Of a stretch of DNA of 25,962 bases, positions 17,283-18,501 are shown piece by piece. The stretch comes from a virus, in IMG/VR virus record IMGVR_UViG_3300035698_023842, positions 1 through 25,962 of that record; one strand, written 5' to 3'. The notes under the pieces are model-generated. The model was not told where the DNA came from. It worked only from the letters and a program-made list of their open reading frames with translations, and searched no databases. The stretch's first letter is position 1, and each line of letters begins with the position of its first letter. The translations under genes were made by a program, and so were the position numbers.

Positions 17283-18317
17283 ATGGAAATACTTCCAAAT
17301 GTCCAAATCAAGTATCCAGAGTATTCAGTTATCACACCTCAAACAATGAGAGAATATACTGTTCGAACACTCAATGTAGAGGAAGAAGAAAATTTCAAAG
17401 CAAGTATATTGACACCAAATCAATTTGCTGAGCATTTGAACAAAATTATATGGTCATGTATTATAAAAAGATCAGAAGGAATTAATGATTTTGAAACATT
17501 TATGCAAAAGACTACAATTCGTGATCGAGATGCTCTTCTTTATGGGCTGTATCATATTAGTTACAAAGAAGTAAGTGATTATGATGTATATTGTGCAGCT
17601 TGTGAAAAATCATTTCCTGTTAAAATTAATATAGCTAAATGTTTTTCAGCAGAACGTTATATTCCTTATGAGGTAGTTCAACGATATCTTGATTTTCAAA
17701 AGAAACAAAAAGGCATTCCTATTGCTAATGCGAAAATACGACCAACAGCAAGTAAAGGGGATCCTACAACAGATGAAGAAGCTGCTAAATTATTGGCAGG
17801 AGCAGAACCTTCAATTACTCCACCAAAATCATCTACACTTCCTCCAGTTTCTGCTCCAATGAGGTCAACAGAAGAAGCTCCCGCTCCTATTGATCATGAT
17901 GAAATAATTAATAAGAGAGTTGAAGTTATGCTTCCTACAGCTACTAATATAATAGCTTATGTTAAACAACCTACTCTAGCAGATGAAGAATTAGTTACAA
18001 AAGATCCTTTATTCCAATCAGAAAAAGAACAAGGGATAGCAACTGAATTGCTTGTTTTAGATAGGTTTGAAATAATTCCTGATGGGGAAGAAAAGAATTC
18101 AAGAAATAAAATAACAATTAAAGAAAAAGATAATCTGTATGTATTATATCGAAAATTGCCTGCAGTTGACAGAAAGAAAATCAATAAAGCATATATTGAT
18201 AACTTTGGCAAATATGGTATCACATTAAAAGTAAAAACCCGTTGTAATTTTTGTGGTGAGCTGGCGGAGTCAGCTATTGACTTAGTCAACCAATTTTTTC
18301 GCGCATTGTATCAATAA
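17283..18317 (+). CDS. T4 gp26-like tail/baseplate assembly protein, zero-frame product, 344 aa
   Basis: This is the short product of a gene that continues in the +1 frame. It has two CxxC pairs: VYCAACEKSF (about residue 103) and TRCNFCGELA (about residue 323), the latter followed by ESAIDLVNQFF. That is the zinc-finger-plus-FF ending I associate with gp26-like hub/assembly proteins of T4-type phages. A Pro/Ser/Thr-rich linker (about 160-200) separates two parts. The position just after the tail tube is where tail assembly chaperones lie in long-tailed phages; those commonly use programmed frameshifting to make a second, longer form. The start follows AGGAGG. The zero frame ends with TAA five codons after TTT TTT CGC. 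Confidence 0.75.
   Translation: MEILPNVQIKYPEYSVITPQTMREYTVRTLNVEEEENFKASILTPNQFAEHLNKIIWSCIIKRSEGINDFETFMQKTTIRDRDALLYGLYHISYKEVSDYDVYCAACEKSFPVKINIAKCFSAERYIPYEVVQRYLDFQKKQKGIPIANAKIRPTASKGDPTTDEEAAKLLAGAEPSITPPKSSTLPPVSAPMRSTEEAPAPIDHDEIINKRVEVMLPTATNIIAYVKQPTLADEELVTKDPLFQSEKEQGIATELLVLDRFEIIPDGEEKNSRNKITIKEKDNLYVLYRKLPAVDRKKINKAYIDNFGKYGITLKVKTRCNFCGELAESAIDLVNQFFRALYQ
18294..18303 (+). other. Predicted +1 ribosomal frameshift site TTT TTT CGC G
   Basis: In the zero frame the codons are TTT TTT CGC GCA. A tRNA-Phe (anticodon GAA) on TTT can move one base forward onto TTC, a better match, while the uncommon CGC codon waits in the A site. The next codon is then GCG. The same codon pair TTT CGC marks the frame break in the Trp-repeat gene at 2957-2962. 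The known influenza PA-X site (UUU CGU, +1) has the same logic. A -2 slip on the T-run would reach the same frame. Confidence 0.6.
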
Positions 18318-18501
18318 CGAAGCAGTTGAACGATTTAGTACTTCACTTGAGGAAAATATCTTTTTGATGACAGAATTACTTCATCAGAATTATATTGATA
18401 TAATGAAAATGCCCATAGCAAGGTTCTATGGGCTACTCAAGTTAAAAGATAAATTCGATAAGGATGTTGCAAAGATTCAAAAAGAAGAACTTGGGAAATA
18501 A
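18301..18501 (+). CDS. +1-frame extension of the tail assembly gene (fusion product about 405 aa)
   Basis: This frame has no start codon or ribosome binding site of its own near its beginning but reads as a good helical protein: NNEAVERFSTSLEENIFLM, then YIDIMKMPIARFYGLLKLKD, ending in TAA at 18499-18501. Joining 17283..18299 to 18301..18501 gives 339 + 66 residues, with ...NQFF followed by AHCINNEAVE. The MKMPIxRFxxLLxLKxK ending resembles the C-termini of tail assembly chaperone fusions. Without it, the 230 bases before gp25 would be empty. Expression as a frameshifted extension is inference from position, quality of the frame and slippery site. Confidence 0.72.
   Translation, partial: AHCINNEAVERFSTSLEENIFLMTELLHQNYIDIMKMPIARFYGLLKLKDKFDKDVAKIQKEELGK

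Follow-up and report, generated by a model that had tools for sequence, protein, structure and literature searches.

A large, mostly uncultured phage lineage probably makes its gp26/gp51-type pair of tail proteins by a programmed +1 slip of the ribosome at UUU_CGN, a prokaryotic site of the PA-X type. Homologues use -1 slips or separate genes; the direction of slipping would have changed while the two-product design was kept. The locus studied here very likely encodes a T4 gp26-family tail assembly chaperone whose two lengths both come from a single gene, with a +1 slip at UUU_CGC giving the longer. As far as sequences can tell, this is a tail chaperone frameshift of a known kind with an unusual mechanism, and the other frameshifting members of the family that were examined use -1. 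The short and long chaperone design of T4-type tails would thus be kept while the route to it varies by lineage between a -1 slip, a +1 slip and two genes.

The gp26-like gene and its neighbours

The window, meaning the whole stretch of DNA analysed, is 25,962 nucleotides long (IMG/VR virus record IMGVR_UViG_3300035698_023842, positions 1 to 25,962). Its tail genes run in the order tail sheath, tail tube, gp26-like frame and then a gp25-type gene, with the following features.

14668..16311, + strand: tail sheath gene (phrog_19666, E 2e-76)
16351..17100, + strand: tail tube gene (phrog_45 tail tube, E 6e-10)
17283..18317, + strand: gp26-like gene, predicted short form of 344 aa (PF12322, E 3.9e-11; stop TAA at 18315-18317)
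18286..18317, + strand: overlap of the gp26 frame and the +1 frame, inside which the shift must fall (TAG 18283-18285 in the +1 frame, TAA 18315-18317 in the 0 frame)
18294..18302, + strand: putative shift site UUU_UUU_CGC ([UUU/UUC]_UUU_CGN, invariant in 80/80 loci and present too in the contigs L097 and L098)
18301..18501, + strand: +1-frame extension, 66 codons and TAA, predicted C-terminal domain of the 405-aa long form (open in all relatives, dN/dS about 0.39)
18547..18972, + strand: gp25-type baseplate wedge gene (PF04965, E 1.9e-10)

The Shine–Dalgarno sequence of the gp26-like gene, AGGAGG, is found in the window sequence at 17268-17273. The protein scores 43.5 bits against PF12322 (T4_baseplate), where the curated cut-off is 24.5, and 13 of 13 related records also pass that cut-off. 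In the relatives, the match covers about positions 2-219 of the 219 in the model; in the window protein, it consists of a best stretch (2-103) and a second stretch with a long insert between them. The insert, which is Pro-rich and separates the two halves of the protein (about 17690-17900), is found in L008 as well, and shorter relatives are without it. Both CxxC pairs are invariant in 25 aligned gp26-like sequences, except for one shifted gap in L012. Elsewhere in the window, on the - strand at 6852-9654, an AAA-type ATPase gene adjoins a gene for a DUF2201 putative metallopeptidase, an unusual pair for a tail-gene region.

The first-pass annotation had described a 66-codon frame with no start of its own continuing the gene after the tail tube, and had proposed that a programmed frameshift joins the two into 405 residues. 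Open between 18286 and the TAA at 18499-18501, the +1 frame shares 32 nt with the gp26 frame and contains no ATG, GTG or TTG between the upstream stop and 15 codons beyond the slip site. Joining the frames at UUU 18297-18299 (UUU_CGC, 18297-18302) gives a product of that same length, 405 residues, including the 66 extension codons. Both the start-less frame and its length are confirmed, and the proposed frameshift is supported by the comparison with relatives, which sets its probable direction as +1 at UUU_CGN.

An invariant site at the end of the gp26 frame

A profile search of IMG/VR returned 154 relatives. Eighty loci were fetched and 79 were analysed alongside the window, giving 80 viral loci in the counts of the site; the eightieth fetched locus, left out of the analysis, lies on another contig and shares its match with L008. 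The +1 extension is present in 79 of 79 relatives and runs 54-68 codons past the gp26 stop, with two cut by the contig end. The -1 frame in these relatives is never longer than 36 codons, and so none has a -1 extension.

The conserved slip site that the annotation had suggested looking for in relatives is there at the same place. The gp26 frame always ends in Phe-Phe-Arg in the 80 viral loci. The first Phe codon is UUU in 75 and UUC in 5, the second is UUU in all 80, and the Arg codon that follows is CGN in all 80. Elsewhere in the same genes, Arg is encoded by AGR 2.5 times as commonly as by CGN (310 to 123, counted over 45 clusters at 80% identity). Taken naively, finding CGN at the site in all 45 clusters has a probability of 2.5e-25, or 4e-8 with 14 clusters at 60% identity, both figures assuming an independence of clusters that is not fully true. 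Nowhere else in these genes, over 11,594 codons, does UUU_CGN appear. Most loci have a +1-frame stop just 4-10 codons before the slip and reach the end of the gp26 frame a few codons after it, so the shift is confined to a short stretch. Of the 45 clusters, 24 have CGC or CGG in the A site; in one large related contig, these two make up 166 of 744 CGN codons. Slow decoding of the A-site codon may aid the slip, although the bias is only suggestive, as the extension's own codon puts a constraint on the third base as well.

Two further contigs, binned with archaeal metagenome-assembled genomes (L097 with Thermoplasmatales, L098 with Woesearchaeota), have the same layout and site as the window. 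They carry the same phage tail genes and are either misbinned phage contigs or archaeal viruses; we do not take archaeal hosts as proven, since the window encodes a Peptidase_M15-type endolysin. Between the probable tail tube gene and gp26, both contigs (L097 at 1308-3460, L098 at 1463-3328) have two adjacent similar genes of unassigned function, each with a NEASDYQ motif. Another related virus contig, of 248 kb (G003 C1, locus L116), has 29 tRNA genes according to ARAGORN, one of them, at 66784-66860, called as tRNA-Pyl (CUA), a possible amber suppressor.

Probable direction of the proposed slip

From a site, phase, joined frame and selection that come from the comparison, we infer the slip and its efficiency as follows. 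The majority of ribosomes would stop at 18315 and release the 344-residue short form. A minority would slip forward by one base while the Phe tRNA is on UUU 18297-18299 and CGC is in the A site. Phe tRNA reads both UUU and UUC. The slipped tRNA would re-pair on UUC 18298-18300, the next codon would be GCG 18301-18303, and these ribosomes would finish at 18499 with the 405-residue long form. The junction peptide expected from the +1 slip is CNFCGELAESAIDLVNQFFAHCINNEAVER. Sites of the form UUU_Ynn are described in the literature as prone to +1 slips in bacteria. In the window lineage, a folding test found no stimulatory RNA structure downstream (its z-scores being rough, from mononucleotide shuffles), and no Shine–Dalgarno sequence was found nearby upstream of the slip. 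The result would be a natural, conserved +1 site that lacks an adjacent stop codon, a nearby Shine–Dalgarno sequence and any obvious RNA structure, in a gene of a bacterial virus.

A -2 slip of the kind known from phage Mu would lead into the same frame and add one extra Phe, and the six-T run in the window and most relatives permits it. We consider it very improbable: in the five loci with UUC_UUU_CGN, it would place the Phe tRNA on UCU, and it leaves the invariant C of CGN without a reason. Less probable still is slippage of the polymerase on the T run to give a subset of mRNAs one base shorter. The loss of one T from the six consecutive T would yield the same protein; however, the UUC_UUU_CGN loci have just three T and yet keep the extension, and slippage of this kind has no need for UUU to be in phase with CGN. 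It is the retention of the extension in the UUC_UUU_CGN loci, opposing both the -2 slip and transcript slippage, that favours the +1 direction.

Probable translation of the extension as part of the gp26 product

The extension has a dN/dS of about 0.39, whereas its two alternative frames have 0.87 and 1.33. The segment from the gp26 stop to codon 22 has a pN/pS of 0.27, compared with 1.23 and 1.76 in the other frames. Purifying selection so close to the stop implies translation from directly after it. Instead of the separate gene with its own start and ribosome binding site that the first-pass annotation had named as the case against a frameshift, 76 of the 79 loci have no in-frame start preceded by a Shine–Dalgarno-like tetramer. 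At other gene ends in these contigs, 83 of 92 long overlapping frames do have a start nearby. Taken together, the selection from the stop onward, the lack of such starts in the 76 loci and the starts near other overlapping frames make independent initiation of the extension unlikely on sequence grounds.

The equivalent stretch is annotated as 'baseplate hub assembly catalyst' in some T4-type phage records, which would fit a small gene separate from gp26, with its own start or coupled to the gp26 stop. Beyond the scarcity of starts and the selection just described, the annotated start in S-RIM8 omits conserved residues, and the equivalent tail in T4 gp51 is fused to a gp26-like domain. We give the separate gene as slight a chance as polymerase slippage. 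Sequencing error or a decayed gene, which in a single genome could look alike as one frame difference, is refuted by conservation: the 80 viral loci come from many metagenomes, every one of them is broken at the same codon, and both parts are under selection.

Relationship to T4 gp26 and gp51 and to the jumbo phages

T4 gp51 consists of the full PF12322 domain and a 48-residue tail, while T4 gp26 is the domain alone. Judging by this domain content, T4 makes the short and long forms from two genes, gp26 and its paralogue with a tail, gp51. T4 and the window lineage thus share PF12322 in both products, the short one without and the long one with a C-terminal tail, and differ in that T4 has two separate genes and the window one gene and a predicted +1 shift. 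Homology to T4 gp26 (short) and gp51 (long), with lambda G/GT as an analogy, suggests a role for each product: the short form may serve as a coat on the tape measure protein, and the added domain of the long form may bring in subunits of the tube or hub.

Other members of the T4 superfamily resemble the window in that a single PF12322 gene is followed at its end by an overlapping extension (about 55-65 codons), but theirs is in the -1 frame and mostly at U_UUU_UUC. A -1 extension is at the same place as the window's +1 extension in 114 other T4-superfamily loci; no extension in this style was found in the 79 relatives of the window. All 13 of 13 cultured T4-superfamily phages (cyanophages, Vibrio, Rhizobium, Aeromonas, Pseudomonas and Ackermannviridae) have a -1 extension across the gp26 stop. 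In the cyanophage-type contigs, U_UUU_UUC is in phase in 80 of 80 and the long -1 frame is present in 79, the last being cut by the contig end. These loci also have a Shine–Dalgarno-like element 8-10 nt ahead of the slip site, as well as folding downstream of it (z -2.0 compared with -0.5, on the same rough shuffles), features that set them apart from the window lineage. Across L135-L214, Shine–Dalgarno-like pentamers are strongly concentrated 8-10 nt upstream of TTTTTTC (background density 0.6%), as expected for a dnaX-type stimulator. In 21 of 21 Ackermannviridae-type contigs, the -1 extension occurs at AUU_UUC or GUU_UUC. The profile of the T4-superfamily extensions matches the tail of T4 gp51 (E 3.5e-6).

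The closest cultured relatives of the window lineage (AR9, PBS1, BpSp, the staphylococcal jumbo phages and phiR1-37) have a -1 extension at CUU_UUU or CUU_UUC. Their 0-frame protein is homologous to that of the window lineage (250 columns aligned with the slip positions in register, E 1.8e-22) and their extension is similar (28 columns, E 2.5e-4), whereas the shift at CUU_UUY is to the other frame. In hhalign comparisons, the window-lineage extension has no significant match to the cyanophage and gp51 tails; the case for homology of the extension domain is therefore its position together with the match to the jumbo-phage extension (E 2.5e-4). The hhalign match of the window-lineage to the cyanophage gp26 profiles is weak (probability 10%), so that kinship rests on PF12322. 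A tblastn search with the extension alone gave no match in cultured phages, and searches of NCBIfam and PDB gave nothing informative.

Comparison with other programmed frameshifts

With the conserved site and joined frame, a single gene would yield both a short and a long product through a frameshift near its 3' end, the trait of the G/GT type. The gp26-like gene comes directly after the sheath and tube genes; a tape measure gene was not identified. Lambda G/GT, P2 E/E' and Mu similarly make short and long products from one gene beside the tail tube gene with a shift near the 3' end, but they have no detectable sequence relation to the window gene, and the shift is -1 in lambda and P2 and -2 in Mu. 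The gp26-like protein matched no Pfam chaperone family. Phage_TAC_19 was matched by 1 of 40 extensions (E 0.011), and there was no other match to the lambda-type chaperone families.

The tail assembly chaperones of T4-like phages are reportedly treated by Vladimirov, Gautam and Davidson 2022 (Virology 566:9-15), to go by its title and a paper citing it. That citing paper refers to them for -1 signals of the poly-T type in T4-like TAC-N genes (PMC12846349). Published in 2025 on Pseudomonas phage Adele, the same paper distinguishes a short chaperone form, TAC-N, from a long one, TAC-NC, and describes a -1 site in the phage's own family (PMC12846349). The link of T4-like hub proteins to the G/GT class drawn in the first-pass annotation is right but not new, having been published in 2022 by the account in this citing paper. 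A literature search that covered few subscription papers turned up no +1 shift reported for any gp26-type gene. Two things appear to be new: the +1 version at UUU_CGN, and a slip direction that changed inside a single gene family.

The nearest counterpart of the site is in influenza A PA-X, where the +1 shift occurs at UCC_UUU_CGU by a P-site slip on UUU_C (PMC3498833). The PA-X pattern, UUU followed by CGN in the original frame with an open +1 frame after it, can be read in 80 of 80 loci, and the P-site slip proposed for the window would be of the same kind. PA-X differs in belonging to a eukaryotic virus and ribosome and in its E-site codon. Listeria phage PSA and Bacillus phage SPP1 likewise have a programmed +1 shift in a phage tail gene, but it is in the tail tube gene, and the PSA shift takes place at a Pro codon next to a stop codon.

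Several genome records of T4-type phages either lack the long product or annotate it wrongly. The -1 extension lies unannotated right after gp26 in S-CAM1 (L127), S-WAM2 (L134), VH7D (L131), PhiSH19 (L132) and Serratia 3M (L133). The records of S-RIM8 (L128), phiAS5 (L124) and IC12 (L123) start it at an internal ATG and leave out conserved residues.
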